From Planctomycetota bacterium (lineage in GTDB: Bacteria > Planctomycetota > Phycisphaerae > UBA1845), in the NCBI GenBank assembly GCA_030616775.1, contig JAUWWQ010000015.1, forward strand, positions 1 through 64,000: a DNA stretch of 64,000 nt, written 5' to 3'. A program made the translations under genes and the position numbers. Numbering within the stretch: position 1 is the stretch's first letter; each line of letters begins with the position of its first letter. Shown here in pieces: positions 4,414-11,031 of the stretch. The notes under the pieces were generated by a model, which saw only the letters and a program-made list of their open reading frames with translations, ran no database searches and had not been told where the DNA came from.

Positions 4414-4881
4414 ATGAATTTTGGACTGATCGATCGTATCGTTGAGTTGACGCGAAGCGAGCGCATTGTCGCCGTCAAAGCAACGTCGCTGGCGGAAGAG
4501 TACCTGGCGGATCACTTTCCGACGTTTCCCGTCCTACCGGGTGTGCTGATGCTTCAGGGCCTGGTGGAGGCGGCCACTTGGCTGGTCCGCGACGCGTTGG
4601 ATTTCTCCCCAAGCATCATCTTGCTTCGTCAGGCAAAGAATGTTACATACAAGAACTTTGTCAGACCGGGCAATCTGCTTACCTTGACGGTCACTTGTCG
4701 CCGGCTGGCGCAAGGCGAAAGCGGTTTCGACGGTGTCGGGCACTGCAATCAGGATGAGGTGGTTCGAGCGAGGTTCGGCCTGACACACTTGTCCCTCGGG
4801 CAGTCTGAAGGCGCGGCTACGCCCGTGGATCAACGACTGGTGGAAGCGGCGAGAGCGAGGTTTGCCCTCCTGCGCCGGTAG
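4414..4881 (+). CDS. FabZ-like hotdog dehydratase with altered active-site residue
   Basis: This 155-aa single hotdog domain resembles (3R)-hydroxyacyl-ACP dehydratases. The signature DHFPTFPVLPGVLML is present with the catalytic-type His at residue 34. The Glu expected 14 residues later (FabZ E63 position) is Gln48. A Glu appears at residue 52, where FabZ normally has Gln, so the two residues look exchanged along the helix. The paralogue at 5417-5917 keeps the normal arrangement. It is the first gene of the acyl cassette. It could be a dehydratase with a rearranged active site or a non-catalytic partner subunit. The family is clear; activity is not. Confidence 0.8.
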   Translation: MNFGLIDRIVELTRSERIVAVKATSLAEEYLADHFPTFPVLPGVLMLQGLVEAATWLVRDALDFSPSIILLRQAKNVTYKNFVRPGNLLTLTVTCRRLAQGESGFDGVGHCNQDEVVRARFGLTHLSLGQSEGAATPVDQRLVEAARARFALLRR

Positions 4882-4969: not shown

Positions 4970-5362
4970 ATGGCTCCAAGCCGTGATGAACTTTTCACGC
5001 AGATCCGAGACGTGCTTGGCGACGCGCTCGGCGTCGACGAGGAAGAAGTAGTGCCCGAGGCGACACTCCAGGGCGATCTCGGAGCCGAGAGCATCGACTT
5101 TCTGGACATCGTCTTTCGGCTCGAAAAAGCGTTTTCGATCAAGATTCCCAAAGGCGAGCTGTTCCCCGACGACATTCTCAATAACCCGGAATATGTCCAG
5201 GATGACAGGATGACCCCGGCCGGCCTCGATAAGCTCAAAGCGACTGTTCCGCACGCGGACTTCTCCGAGTTCGAGAAATCCCCGTACCTATCGAAGATGC
5301 CTGACTTGTTCACGGTCAACACCATCGTCAACTACGTAGAAAGCAAGCTCGCCGCCGCCTGA
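4970..5362 (+). CDS. Acyl carrier protein
   Basis: This is a 130-aa ACP, longer than the roughly 80 residues of housekeeping ACP. The start at 4970 is chosen because GGAGG precedes it by about 9 bases; an upstream in-frame extension to 4910 lacks a ribosome site. The phosphopantetheine attachment motif is GAESIDFLDIVFRLE, with Ser41. Most of the extra length lies in an insertion between helix II and the end (FPDDILNNPEYVQDD and following). It sits between two dehydratase-like genes and is presumably the carrier for the cassette. Confidence 0.88.
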   Translation: MAPSRDELFTQIRDVLGDALGVDEEEVVPEATLQGDLGAESIDFLDIVFRLEKAFSIKIPKGELFPDDILNNPEYVQDDRMTPAGLDKLKATVPHADFSEFEKSPYLSKMPDLFTVNTIVNYVESKLAAA

Positions 5363-5416: not shown

Positions 5417-5917
5417 ATGCGATGGATCTGGATCGATGCTTTCGTCGAATTCGTCTCCGGGGAGCGGGCCTCGGCCGTCAAGAACGTGACACTCGCCGAG
5501 GAGCATCTTCGTGATCATTTCCCGGGGTATCCTGTCATGCCGGCAAGTCTGATAATCGAAGGCATGGCCCAGACAGCCGGAATCCTGGTCGGAGAAGCCC
5601 GGGGGTTCGCAGAAAACGTGATTCTTGCTAAGATTCGCACCGCGGAGTTTGATGATTATGCTGTCCCGGGGGACCAGTTGCGCTACGACGCCGTCATCGA
5701 GTCCCTGGACGAGCGCGCCGCAGCCACGAGCGGGACGGTTTTGAAGAACGGCAAGCCAATCGGGCGGGTTGACCTAATTTTTTCGCACGTGAACCAGGCG
5801 GACAGACCTGCCGATATGCCGGATCACAACTTCGTATTCACCGGGCAGTTCATGAACCTGCTTACGGCGTTTCGCAGCCAAGGCGGGAGTGGAGGCGATC
5901 AACCCGATGGCAGATAG
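5417..5917 (+). CDS. FabZ-like (3R)-hydroxyacyl-ACP dehydratase
   Basis: This 166-aa hotdog protein has the motif DHFPGYPVMPASLIIEGMAQ. It retains His34 and Glu48 at the two catalytic positions of the FabZ family, plus the following Gln52. It should dehydrate 3-hydroxyacyl thioesters carried by the neighbouring ACP. Its 3' end overlaps the start of the next gene by 11 bases, suggesting translational coupling. It differs from housekeeping FabZ in lacking the usual N-terminal PHRYPFLLVD stretch; it begins directly with WIDAFVEF. Confidence 0.82.
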   Translation: MRWIWIDAFVEFVSGERASAVKNVTLAEEHLRDHFPGYPVMPASLIIEGMAQTAGILVGEARGFAENVILAKIRTAEFDDYAVPGDQLRYDAVIESLDERAAATSGTVLKNGKPIGRVDLIFSHVNQADRPADMPDHNFVFTGQFMNLLTAFRSQGGSGGDQPDGR

Positions 5918-7247
5918 ACAGCGGGTGGTCGTTACGGGATTAGGTGTTGCGACGCCGACCGGAATCGGGATGGAGCCGTTCTGGGACGCCCTGATCGAGA
6001 AACGCCGCGGGATCAGGCGTATCCAGGCGTTCGATCCGTCGGGCCTCGCTGCTCAGGTCGGCGGTGAGCTTCCTTCTTTCGCGCTCGGCGACTACATACC
6101 CAAGAGCTACCGGAAAAGTGCCAAGGTGATGTCACGAGGCATCAAGATCGCCATGGTCTGCGCTTACCACGCCGTCAAAGACGCCGGCCTTAAGACCAAG
6201 TGCATCATCGAGCGCGGTGAAGCAAACGGCCCGCCCAATCTCGACAGCCGGCGGTTCGGGGCCAACATCGGCGCGGGTCTGATCTGCGCCGACCTCAACG
6301 AGCTGGCCGGTGCGCTGGCCACGGCCGCGGATGAGGACCGCCGCTTCAGTCTGATCCGGTGGGGCACAGAGGGCATGAACAACCTTACCCCGCTGTGGCT
6401 GTTGAAGTTCCTGCCCAACATGCTAGCCTGCCACGTGACCATCGTGCACAACGCCCAGGCACCCTCCAACACCATCACCTGCGCGGAAGCGTCCAGTCAC
6501 CTGGCGATCGGCGAAGCCTTCCGAACCATTGCCCGTGGCGACGCCGACGTGTGCATCTGCGGCGGAGCGGAGAGCAAGATAAATCCGATGGCAATTACCA
6601 GACCGCTGCTGTGGGGCCGGCTGAATACGGACGACAATGATGCTCCCGAACGGGCGTCCCGGCCCTTCGGCGCTCGCCGGTGTGGTATGGTGGTGGCCGA
6701 AGGTGGTGGGCTGGTGATCCTCGAATCGCTCGACCACGCCCGTGAGCGTGGTGCCAGGATTTACGCCGAGGTTGTGGGGCTCGGGGCCGGAGCGAACACC
6801 AACAGTTGGTCAACGCCGGACCCCAAGGGTGCGGGTATTGCGCTGGCGCTTCGCAAGGCATTGGCCGACGCGGGTACCGCCGCGGACCGGATCGACCTGG
6901 TTACGCCTTTCGGCACCGGCACGGTAGGGCATGATGCCGGCGAGATGGCAGCCTGGAACGAAGTGTTTGGGGCGCGGTTGGATCACATCCCGGCGATGAC
7001 CAGCCGCGGGGCGATCGGAAACAACGGAGCCGGGTCGGGTGCGATCGACTTCGCTGCGACGGTTGTGGCCCTGTATCGCAACACAGTCCCTCCATCCCCT
7101 AACACGGAGGACCTCGACTCCAGGTGCCGCTTCCGGTTTGTTCGAGAACATCCGATCGACGCCAACATCACACAGGCGATCAGTGTTGGCTATGCATTGG
7201 CCGGCACGCAGAGCGCCGCATTGGTGATTCGACGTCATCAGGAGTAG
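5907..7247 (+). CDS. Beta-ketoacyl synthase-like protein lacking both active-site His residues
   Basis: This 446-aa protein has the thiolase-fold ketosynthase layout. ATG at 5907 is preferred over GTG at 5889 because GGAGG lies at 5891-5895. The nucleophile region ITCAEASSH keeps Cys192. The first His motif (normally HGTGT) reads TPFGTGT, with Phe335. The second (normally KxxxGH) reads RGAIGNN, with Arg367 and Asn372. In elongating ketosynthases both His residues assist decarboxylation and condensation. This protein is thus unlike a normal KS and unlike a chain-length factor, which loses the Cys. It overlaps the dehydratase upstream and is 4 bp from the intact KS downstream, so a KS/KS-like heterodimer is the natural guess. 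Confidence 0.85.
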   Translation: MADRQRVVVTGLGVATPTGIGMEPFWDALIEKRRGIRRIQAFDPSGLAAQVGGELPSFALGDYIPKSYRKSAKVMSRGIKIAMVCAYHAVKDAGLKTKCIIERGEANGPPNLDSRRFGANIGAGLICADLNELAGALATAADEDRRFSLIRWGTEGMNNLTPLWLLKFLPNMLACHVTIVHNAQAPSNTITCAEASSHLAIGEAFRTIARGDADVCICGGAESKINPMAITRPLLWGRLNTDDNDAPERASRPFGARRCGMVVAEGGGLVILESLDHARERGARIYAEVVGLGAGANTNSWSTPDPKGAGIALALRKALADAGTAADRIDLVTPFGTGTVGHDAGEMAAWNEVFGARLDHIPAMTSRGAIGNNGAGSGAIDFAATVVALYRNTVPPSPNTEDLDSRCRFRFVREHPIDANITQAISVGYALAGTQSAALVIRRHQE

Positions 7248-7251
7248 GCCG

Positions 7252-8559
7252 TTGGAGCGACGCGTCGTCATCACGGGAACGGGCTGGGTGACGCCCCTGG
7301 GCCACGACATCGAAACAGTGTGGCGGCGTATGCTCGCCGGAGACAGCGGTGTGGCCTCCACGACGCTGTTCGACGCTCGAACGTTTCCCTCATCTTTTGC
7401 CGCCGAGGTCAAGGACTTCTCGCTAGTTCAATTCTTGAAATCAGACGCAAAGAAGCACCAGGGGGCGAGCCGCAACACGCAGTTCGCCCTGGCTTCGGGT
7501 GTGATGGCCTGGGAGCATGCAGGATTATCACAATATGTGGGCCTCGATCCGACCCGTGTCGGCGTCTACCTGGGCGGCGGTGAGGGGCCGATCGATTTCG
7601 ACCCGTGTGCGGCCGCAGCATTGGCTGGGTGTTTGGGCGAAGACTGTGAAGTGACACCCCTTGACACTGTGCGATGGGCTCAGACTGCGCTGCGCCTGCT
7701 AGACGCCACATGCGAACTCGAGCAGGACCCGAACATGGCGGGCGGACACCTGGCCGTCCAATTCAACGCCCAGGGCCCCAACTTCAACACGCTCACCGCT
7801 TGTGCCGCCAGCACACAGGCAGTTGGTGAAGCCATGCAACTGATCCTCCACGGTGACGCCGACGTGATGATCACAGGCGGGACCCACAGCATGATTCACC
7901 CGCTGGGCATAACGGGGTTCAATCGGCTGACCGCTCTATCGACTAGAAATGACGACTATTTGACAGCTTCGCGCCCCTTTGATCGTACGCGCGACGGGTT
8001 CGTTCTGGGGGAGGGCGCCGCCATCGTGATTCTCGAAGAGCTGGAGCATGCCAGGCGTCGCGGGGCCCGGATACTTGCAGAGGTCGTCGGTTTCGGTTCA
8101 ACCGCTGACGCGTTTCGTATTACTGACATCCATGAGGAGGGTCGCGGGGCGATTGCCGCAATGCAGGCCGCCCTGGATTGCGCCGGGATGACCCCGGAAG
8201 ACATCGACTACATATCCGCCCACGGCACCGGTACGGAAGAGAACGACAAGATCGAGACGCTGGCCATCCGTGGCCTCTTCGGCAAGCACGCCGACAGGGT
8301 CGCGGTGAACAGCATAAAAAGCATGATCGGGCACCTGATCGCCGCCGCCGGGGCGGTGGAACTGATCACCTGCGTGTTAGCCATCCGCGACGGCGTCATA
8401 CCCCCGACCATAAACTACAGTACGCCCGACCCGAATTGTGATCTGGACTGCGTGCCCAACAAAGCCCGCAAGCGCGAGGTGCGAGCTGCCCTCTCCAACA
8501 GCTTCGGCTTTGGAGGCCAGAACAATACCCTCATTGTCCGTGCGCCCAAGCATGTATAG
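7252..8559 (+). CDS. Beta-ketoacyl-ACP synthase II-like (FabF family)
   Basis: This 435-aa ketosynthase carries the full Cys-His-His triad: Cys184 in LTACAAST, His324 in ISAHGTGT and His361 in NSIKSMIGHL. It should condense acyl and malonyl units carried by ACP. The start is a TTG at 7252 with GGAG 7 bases upstream. No better start exists, since the fold begins at residue 3 (RRVVITGTGWVTPLG). It is the last gene of the acyl cassette. No malonyl transferase, ketoreductase or enoyl reductase is in this window, so those steps must come from elsewhere. Confidence 0.92.
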   Translation: MERRVVITGTGWVTPLGHDIETVWRRMLAGDSGVASTTLFDARTFPSSFAAEVKDFSLVQFLKSDAKKHQGASRNTQFALASGVMAWEHAGLSQYVGLDPTRVGVYLGGGEGPIDFDPCAAAALAGCLGEDCEVTPLDTVRWAQTALRLLDATCELEQDPNMAGGHLAVQFNAQGPNFNTLTACAASTQAVGEAMQLILHGDADVMITGGTHSMIHPLGITGFNRLTALSTRNDDYLTASRPFDRTRDGFVLGEGAAIVILEELEHARRRGARILAEVVGFGSTADAFRITDIHEEGRGAIAAMQAALDCAGMTPEDIDYISAHGTGTEENDKIETLAIRGLFGKHADRVAVNSIKSMIGHLIAAAGAVELITCVLAIRDGVIPPTINYSTPDPNCDLDCVPNKARKREVRAALSNSFGFGGQNNTLIVRAPKHV

Positions 8560-8823: not shown

Positions 8824-11031
8824 ATGGAACCAATCTATCTCGACTACAACGCCACGACACCGCTCGATCCGGCAGTTGTCGAGGCCATGCGGCCCTATCT
8901 CGAAACCCACTTCGGCAACCCATCGAGCAGCCACGTGTACGGAGCGCGCGCCAAAAAAGCCGTCGAGACCGCCAGGCGCCAGGTCGCCGACATGCTGGGA
9001 GCCTCTCCCGACGAGATCGTATTTACCAGCGGCGGGTCCGAATCGAACAACCTGGCCATCCGCGGCGTTGCTCAAGCACTCAAACGGAAGGGAAACCACA
9101 TCGTCACCTCTGCGGTCGAGCATCCCGCTGTCATCGAGGTCTGTCGCTACCTCGAAGCCCAGGGTTTTCGCATCACGGTCGTGCCCGTGGACGAAACCGG
9201 CCTGGTGGATTCGACTGACGTCGAAAAAGCCCTTACGCCGGCCACCATCCTGATCACCATCATGCACGCCAACAATGAAGTCGGAACGATACAGCCTATA
9301 CCCGAGATCGCTGAGATCGCGCGCCGCCACGGAATTGTCATTCATACCGATGCCGCCCAGTCCGTCGGCAAAATCCCGACGAAGGTCGACGAACTGGGAG
9401 TGGACCTTCTATCCATAGCCGGCCACAAGCTCTACGCTCCCAAAGGAGTCGGGGCACTATACATCCGGACCGGTGTTAAGCCGGAGAAGCTCATTTTCGG
9501 TGCCGCCCATGAACGCGGTTGGCGCGCCGGTACGGAGAACGTTCTGGAAATCGTGGGGCTTGGACAAGCGTGTGAGCTGGTAAGTGAACACCTTGACAGT
9601 CGTGCAGCCCATATGAGAACGCTGCGCGACAGACTCTATGACGGAATCACCGCCAGAGTCGGCGACATCCGACTGAACGGCCACCCGGAAAAGCGATTAC
9701 CCAATACCCTGAGTATCAGTTTCCGGGGTATCGAGGCAGATGCCATTCTTTCGGAACTTACCGAGGTCGCCGCTTCCGCCGGTGCGGCATGTCACGCCGA
9801 CGAGGTGGTCATGTCGGATACCTTGAAGGCAATGGGGATTCCCGTCGACTTCGCGATGGGCACCGTACGCTTTTCGACCGGGACATTGCTCACCGAATCG
9901 CAGGTCGACCGGGCGATCGAGGCTGTTGCGGCCGTGGTTGAAAGACTCAGGCCCGAGGGTGGCGCGGTTGCCTGCGGTATCGAGGCCGGCGAGAAAGTGA
10001 AACTCACCCGTTTCACGAGCGGCCTGGGCTGCGCCTGCAAGCTTCGCCCCCAGGCTCTCGAAAAACTGCTGGCGGCAATGCCGCCGCTCGGGCACCACCC
10101 CAATGTACTGGTGGGAACCGAAACCGCTGACGATGCGGCGGTGTACAAAGTCGCGGACGATCTGGCCGTCGTTCAGACTGTGGACTTCTTCACGCCGGTT
10201 GTCGATGATCCTTTCCACTTCGGTGCTATCGCCGCGGCCAACTCGCTGAGCGACATCTATGCGATGGGCGCCAAACCGGCCTTCGCACTGAGCATTGTCG
10301 GTTTTCCGTCAAACCGCCTGCCACTAAGCGTGCTTGAGGAAATTCTTCGTGGCGGGCGCCGGGTCGCGGATTCAGCCGGTGTGCCCATCATCGGTGGTCA
10401 CACCGTGGATGATCCCGAGCCGAAGTTCGGACTGGCTGTGACCGGTCTTGTCCATCCCGACGATATCTGGACCAACGTCGGAGCTGTGCCGGGTGACGGG
10501 CTCATACTCACCAAGCCGCTCGGCCTGGGCGTCATGACCACGGCGCTTAAAAGGGATCTGCTGGATCCGGCCGGCGAGGAGCTGATTCAAAACATCATGG
10601 TGAGCCTGAACAAGACCGCAGCGGAAGTCTTGCGGAAGTTCAGGGTGCACGCTTGCACGGACGTAACCGGTTTCGGGCTTCTGGGGCATCTGCGCGAGAT
10701 GTCGGCTGGAAGCGGTGTGGATGCCGAAATCGACCACCGGGCCTTGCCGATCATCAACGGTGCGGCGGACCTGGCCACAGGCGGAATGGTCCCCGGTGGA
10801 ACACTGAACAACAAATCGTTCGTCGAGCCTCACGTAAGTTGGGACAGCAGCGTCTCTGAGACTAACCGGATATTGGCGTGTGACGCTCAGACATCTGGTG
10901 GACTGCTCGCTGCCGTGCCTGACGAAGATGCGGATGACGCCGTTGCGGCACTGCGGGCCGCAGGTGTCGAATCCGCCACCCTGATCGGTCACTTCACCCG
11001 AAAAGGACCGGGCCGGATTGTCGTCCACTGA
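8824..11031 (+). CDS. selD: Cysteine desulfurase - selenide, water dikinase (SelD) fusion
   Basis: This 735-aa protein has two enzymes in one chain. Residues 1-385 are a NifS/IscS-type PLP cysteine desulfurase, with the PLP lysine in AGHKLYAPKG (Lys202) and the persulfide Cys in SAGAACHA (Cys323). Residues 392-735 are selenophosphate synthetase: the glycine-rich motif GLGCACK supplies Cys403 and Lys406, equivalent to E. coli SelD Cys17 and Lys20, and Asp-rich ATP/Mg segments follow. The desulfurase could deliver selenium from selenocysteine directly to SelD. No selA, selB, selC or ybbB is visible nearby, so the end use of selenophosphate is unknown. AGGAG at 8809-8813 supports the start. Confidence 0.92.
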   Translation: MEPIYLDYNATTPLDPAVVEAMRPYLETHFGNPSSSHVYGARAKKAVETARRQVADMLGASPDEIVFTSGGSESNNLAIRGVAQALKRKGNHIVTSAVEHPAVIEVCRYLEAQGFRITVVPVDETGLVDSTDVEKALTPATILITIMHANNEVGTIQPIPEIAEIARRHGIVIHTDAAQSVGKIPTKVDELGVDLLSIAGHKLYAPKGVGALYIRTGVKPEKLIFGAAHERGWRAGTENVLEIVGLGQACELVSEHLDSRAAHMRTLRDRLYDGITARVGDIRLNGHPEKRLPNTLSISFRGIEADAILSELTEVAASAGAACHADEVVMSDTLKAMGIPVDFAMGTVRFSTGTLLTESQVDRAIEAVAAVVERLRPEGGAVACGIEAGEKVKLTRFTSGLGCACKLRPQALEKLLAAMPPLGHHPNVLVGTETADDAAVYKVADDLAVVQTVDFFTPVVDDPFHFGAIAAANSLSDIYAMGAKPAFALSIVGFPSNRLPLSVLEEILRGGRRVADSAGVPIIGGHTVDDPEPKFGLAVTGLVHPDDIWTNVGAVPGDGLILTKPLGLGVMTTALKRDLLDPAGEELIQNIMVSLNKTAAEVLRKFRVHACTDVTGFGLLGHLREMSAGSGVDAEIDHRALPIINGAADLATGGMVPGGTLNNKSFVEPHVSWDSSVSETNRILACDAQTSGGLLAAVPDEDADDAVAALRAAGVESATLIGHFTRKGPGRIVVH

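Follow-up and report, generated by a model that had tools for sequence, protein, structure and literature searches.

The window analysed here is a stretch of 64,000 nucleotides from a Planctomycetota genome (GenBank assembly GCA_030616775.1, contig JAUWWQ010000015.1, positions 1 to 64,000 of the forward strand). It carries five co-directional genes on the plus strand, which encode, in this order, a dehydratase (DH1), an acyl carrier protein (ACP), a second dehydratase (DH2), a pseudo-ketosynthase (pseudo-KS) and an intact ketosynthase (KS) (Table 1). The 3' end of the DH2 gene overlaps the start of the pseudo-KS gene by 11 nt. The first-pass annotation of this DNA had placed a ketosynthase-like protein at the pseudo-KS coordinates of Table 1 and an intact KS 4 bp downstream of it. 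Both placements hold: the frame is open, encodes a KS-fold protein of 446 residues and closes with a stop codon whose last base is 7247, with 4 nt between it and the TTG start of the intact KS at 7252. The arrangement of GAGGAG followed by the stop codon at this junction is similar in many orthologous loci.

Table 1. Genes and sites of the operon, numbered from the first nucleotide of the window
Feature	Position	Strand	Evidence
DH1, FabZ-like hotdog dehydratase	4414..4881	+	PF07977 (1.7e-13) and alignment
Dedicated acyl carrier protein, ~130 aa, motif ESIDFLDIVFRLEKAFSIKIP	about 4970..5362	+	PF00550 and alignment
DH2, FabZ-like dehydratase, His and Glu present	5417..5917	+	PF07977 (1.5e-15) and alignment
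Pseudo-KS (putative KS-beta, CLF-like), 446 aa, start ATG at 5907	5907..7247	+	PF00109/PF02801, AF2, Foldseek
Trp164, invariant; counterpart of Phe133 in E. coli FabF, within segment 159-182 (presumed interface)	6396..6398	+	conservation, ungapped register
Cys192, not the catalytic cysteine; invariant in close orthologues, Ser/Ala/Leu in outgroups	6480..6482	+	alignments
Glu194, in the place of the FabF nucleophile Cys163	6486..6488	+	phmmer, MAFFT, spacing, AF2
Phe335, replacing the HGTGT His	6909..6911	+	orthologue alignment
Asn372, replacing the KxxxGH His	7020..7022	+	orthologue alignment
Shine-Dalgarno-like AGGAG within the final pseudo-KS codons, upstream of the KS start	7240..7244	+	sequence
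Intact KS (KS-alpha), start TTG, Cys184-His324-Lys356-His361	7252..8559	+	profile and alignment

In the alignment, DH1 of the window has the catalytic His and a Gln in the place of the catalytic Glu. The possibility that DH1 and DH2 form a pair of one active and one dead dehydratase was considered and rejected, because most DH1 orthologues keep the Glu. No ligase, acyltransferase or second ACP was seen in the operon, which also has no reductase. The next open reading frame after the operon (8824-11031, plus strand) encodes a NifS-SelD-like fusion, in which an aminotransferase class V domain (cysteine desulfurase-like) is joined to an AIRS domain (selenophosphate synthetase-like), and a fusion frame 94% identical to it also lies downstream of the operon in one other locus.

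The pseudo-KS had been annotated as a protein that keeps the active-site cysteine (Cys192) and has lost both catalytic histidines, a combination said to match neither elongating ketosynthases nor chain-length factors (CLFs). The loss of the histidines is confirmed, with Phe in the HGTGT position and Asn in the GH position, but Cys192 lies two residues before the position of the nucleophile, which is occupied by Glu194 according to phmmer, residue spacing and MAFFT with a raised gap penalty. The catalytic Cys of solved FabF structures pairs with Glu194, not with Cys192, in phmmer alignments. In every one of the 103 pseudo-KS measured, the acidic residue lies 23 positions after a conserved Asn, and the catalytic Cys lies at the same distance from this Asn in each of the 60 intact KS measured; the search patterns were composed with the motif already known, and these counts cover the matched sequences rather than all sequences. 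The motif itself is of equal length in all homologues, reading PSNTITCAEASSHLAIGEAF in the pseudo-KS and PNFNTLTACAASTQAVGEAM in the neighbouring intact KS. Of 101 pseudo-KS, 90 had Glu and 10 had Asp in the nucleophile column once the gap penalty of MAFFT had been raised, a step taken after default runs had given compensating gaps. These counts alone are not independent evidence; for the register, such evidence comes from the spacing counts and phmmer. In the triad columns the pseudo-KS reads Glu-Phe-Arg-Asn, with Arg367 standing for the Lys of the KxxxGH motif, as against Cys-His-Lys-His in 88 intact KS.

Default MAFFT runs, and alignments to the neighbouring KS made with plain BLASTP or hhalign, gave a shifted register in which two compensating gaps bring Ala or Gly (Ala193 in the pseudo-KS) onto the Cys column. 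This register likewise leaves Cys192 off the catalytic Cys, and we ruled it out on the identical ungapped spacing and on the continuity of the helix that follows, since a one-residue insertion would fall inside a continuous helix (residues 193-209) of the AF2 model. Two structure predictions were run, and the one cited here is that from the deeper alignment (mean pLDDT 95, pTM 0.94, residues 193-209 in a single continuous helix); the shallower alignment gave a pLDDT of 83 with low confidence at residues 165-192. The predicted fold is FabF-like, with Foldseek TM scores of 0.87 by query and 0.95 by target. The triad of an elongating ketosynthase (FabF/FabB) is absent, and the protein scores 294 against a cut-off of 493.75 for the fabF equivalog. 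Judged from its sequence, then, the pseudo-KS is without any of the three residues of the catalytic triad (Cys-His-His), and with Glu at the nucleophile position and both His replaced, this is the CLF pattern after all. The suggestion that the subunit can be acylated is not supported, the nucleophile position being Glu194.

Orthologues of the pseudo-KS with more than 55% identity are present in 58 of 60 related genomes, and at the same identity they occur in 80 named loci, nearly all from planctomycete MAGs and most titled Phycisphaerae, Phycisphaerales or Planctomycetota. Among the 81 close orthologues (the window included), position 192 is Cys in every sequence and position 194 is Glu in 77 and Asp in 4. 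The first-pass annotation had asked for the conservation of Phe335 and Asn372, and the answer is mixed: position 335 is Phe in 53, Ala in 11, Leu in 5 and something else in the others, and position 372 is Asn in 61, Val in 7, His in 4 and other residues in the remainder. Thus, an acidic residue is held at position 194 while the two His positions drift. Assembly error, which had been named as a possible source of the unusual residues, does not explain them, because all 81 close orthologues carry Glu or Asp at position 194, and independent orthologues agree with the window, including one in CP070827.1 at 90% identity. Orthologues with normal histidines, which had been named as a possible refutation, do occur, in outgroups only: a sister lineage has Cys-His-His, and some other outgroup sequences have one or both His. 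In a wider sample of the phylum, at least 32 of 199 genomes have a match at E<=1e-80, a threshold of our own choosing, and this figure, which depends on that threshold and on the eight candidates scored, is not a census. When 15-residue windows were ranked by majority-residue frequency, conservation peaked at 159-173 (NLTPLWLLKFLPNML) in the pseudo-KS and at the nucleophile elbow in the intact KS. Segment 159-182, which carries the invariant Trp164, presumably lies at the KS dimer interface and reaches the pocket of the partner.

The gene order DH1-ACP-DH2-pseudo-KS-KS is kept in most loci. The stop codon of the pseudo-KS was recognised in 79 loci; a motif search found the KS in 70 of them and BLAST found it in one more locus where the motif search had missed it; three loci reach a contig edge soon after the pseudo-KS, and in five others no KS was found near it, so that about 71 of the 76 usable loci have an intact KS nearby. 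Pseudo-KS homologues of a Pirellulales-like group and of family f9 appear to stand alone. As another contig of the same genome carries a separate FabH-FabD-FabG-ACP-FabF cluster, the pseudo-KS operon is additional to the housekeeping FASII genes. Homologues of LpxC and of an LpxL-like lipid A acyltransferase are also present in the genome. A second multi-KS locus of this genome (L170, G000:C35:94000-104000) has two tandem KS genes on the plus strand and, on the minus strand, a shorter KS-like gene without the usual Cys motif.

In trees obtained by quick searches, the pseudo-KS group with family f26, whose tandem KS pair supplies the sister sequences through its first member (SH-aLRT 97, 71 sequences), and the grouping persists in a reduced set with long branches removed (SH-aLRT 91). 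The sister KS has Cys-His-Lys-His intact and occupies the operon slot of the pseudo-KS. On the simplest reading, an intact KS was duplicated and catalysis was probably lost later. Intermediate states exist among the homologues (Asp-His-Lys-His, Glu/Asp-His-Lys-Asn and others), and it is from such extant states that we infer the order in which the residues were lost. The pseudo-KS and the Streptomyces CLFs stand apart in the tree; a single clade of the two was not rejected by the AU test (p-AU 0.127), nor was one of the pseudo-KS with the rhizobial FabF2XL (p 0.298). A broader proposal would be that planctomycetes evolved a CLF-type heterodimer of their own through KS duplication and stepwise loss of the triad, independently of the actinobacterial CLFs and the rhizobial FabF2XL, and that it serves a second, fatty-acid-like pathway, nearly universal in the Phycisphaerae but so far unrecognised, which makes an undescribed envelope lipid. 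We put this forward tentatively and regard it, taken as a whole, as rather doubtful.

The reading that we favour, with a probability of roughly two in three, is that the pseudo-KS is a non-catalytic, CLF-like KS-beta. Its most likely partner is the intact KS whose gene begins 4 nt further on, and its role would be to shape the product of that KS. We infer the heterodimer, the pocket role and the product from the findings given above. A heterodimer with the adjacent KS, in which the second subunit does not decarboxylate malonyl-ACP, was also part of the first-pass annotation and carries over on that footing, whereas its acylatable second subunit does not. In such a pair, only KS-alpha would be loaded with an acyl chain and carry out the condensation with malonyl bound to the dedicated ACP. 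Segment 159-182 of the pseudo-KS, invariant and containing Trp164, would line the acyl pocket from the opposite side, and the pseudo-KS would thereby set which chains the pair extends, and how long they become. Intermediates would be processed by both adjacent dehydratases, while FabD and FabG would be borrowed from the housekeeping cluster and an enoyl reductase would be borrowed as well. What the pair makes may be a long or very long acyl chain destined for an envelope lipid; a very long chain is suggested by analogy with the rhizobial AcpXL cluster and by the LpxC and LpxL-like genes in the genome.

The same heterodimer might instead make a polyene or another unsaturated or oxygenated chain, in the manner of a highly reducing type II PKS. 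Such a product would suit an operon with two dehydratases and no reductase, and aryl polyene systems do combine a KS-CLF with dehydratases (PMC8358021). However, the ACP motif is AcpXL-like, no ligase, acyltransferase or second ACP was seen in the operon, and occurrence in nearly every relative points to a core envelope lipid. We consider this outcome rather unlikely, but a live alternative. We think it quite improbable that the pseudo-KS has a chemistry of its own at Glu194, or that it acts as an ACP-binding scaffold or homodimer independently of the KS, as the HGTGT and GH positions vary freely in close orthologues and an intact KS adjoins the gene in most loci. Nevertheless, the elbow around Glu194 (TC.EASSHLA) is very conserved, more so than a purely structural relic would need, and this counts against the CLF-like reading that we prefer; stand-alone homologues in other planctomycete families, which keep Asp or Glu together with one or both His, point the same way, as do the five loci with no KS near the pseudo-KS. 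Condensation-incompetent KS0 domains of trans-AT PKSs retain the catalytic Cys and have lost the His, an identity that we rejected for the pseudo-KS since its Cys position is Glu194. The reading of the first-pass annotation, a KS0-like subunit acylated on a retained active-site Cys and unable to decarboxylate malonyl-ACP, is the least probable of all and can nearly be set aside: Cys192 is indeed invariant in the 81 close orthologues, but the nucleophile position is two residues further on, and outgroups with Ser, Ala or Leu at 192 still keep the acidic residue.

If the CLF-like reading is right, most Phycisphaerae have a dedicated KS/CLF-like lipid pathway alongside normal FASII, whose KS genes standard profiles recognise merely as FabF-like copies. 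The intact sisters with Cys-His-His and the intermediate forms would then constitute an extant series in which to study how a catalytic homodimer turns into a KS/CLF heterodimer.

The unusual active site is not new in itself, because Rattray et al. (2009, PMC2649909) noted Glu163 and Asn333, together with His298 and Lys328, in NP_866153 (RB4527) of Rhodopirellula baltica. That protein was described just as a divergent FabF paralogue, with no CLF or operon reading. Compared by the reported residues alone, its EHKN pattern is that of the Pirellulales-like homologues found here; it differs from the pseudo-KS of the window in retaining the first His. For the CLF-like reading, the conserved operon of the Phycisphaerae and the intact sister copies, we found no published account in the part of the literature that was searched. 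A further locus of the same genome (L171, G000:C45:101500-107000) has a KS, two phytoene-desaturase-like oxidoreductases, and an SDR-like and a ligase-like open reading frame, the non-KS names being taken from translations, and resembles in this respect the anammox/Desulfotalea clusters that Rattray et al. (2009) reported.

According to a 2025 review, KS/CLF is an obligate heterodimer in which one KS is active and the other, lacking the catalytic residues, is not, and chain length is set by a channel at their interface (PMC12664062). The pseudo-KS resembles the CLF of type II PKSs of the actinorhodin type in being a KS-fold subunit in which the nucleophile and both His are replaced, encoded beside an intact KS. 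It differs from them in having Glu instead of Gln (Gln-Asp-Lys-Arg fills these columns of the ungapped motif in Streptomyces CLFs), and its operon differs in the reversed gene order and in having dehydratases instead of cyclases. A KS with a non-catalytic partner is also found in ApeO-ApeC of aryl polyene synthesis and in AmcF-AmcG of cispentacin synthesis (KS-CLF or KS-CYF; PMC8358021, PMC10698177), and these pairs, too, occur with FAS-like dehydratase-fold proteins; however, ApeC is about half the size and AmcG lacks parts of the fold, whereas the pseudo-KS has the full-length KS fold.

In function, the nearest analogue is the AcpXL cluster of rhizobia for very-long-chain fatty acids, which runs acpXL-fabZXL-fabF2XL-fabF1XL-adhXL-lpxXL in Shinella and S. 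meliloti records. In both systems a dedicated ACP with a stretch of the DFLDIVF..(E/D)K.F.IKIP type and a FabZ-like dehydratase accompany a Glu-type pseudo-KS (FabF2XL in rhizobia) that is encoded immediately upstream of an intact KS. The planctomycete operon differs in having two dehydratases, no adjacent adh or lpxXL, and low sequence similarity; neither its ACP (42 bits against the AcpXL cut-off of 83, NF005079) nor its pseudo-KS (72.7 bits against the FabF2XL cut-off of 320, NF005084) reaches the respective cut-off, so neither is a member of these families. FabF2XL reads Glu-x-x-His/Gln with the HGTGT His absent, and FabF1XL beside it is intact. In two rhizobial loci FabF2XL is annotated as a beta-ketoacyl-ACP synthase despite the Glu at its catalytic Cys position, and the comparison made here points out that this annotated ketoacyl synthase is without the catalytic triad. 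An fabF2XL mutant of A. fabrum has no very-long-chain fatty acid in its lipid A, an effect that may include polar effects on the downstream genes of the operon (PMC11901934).
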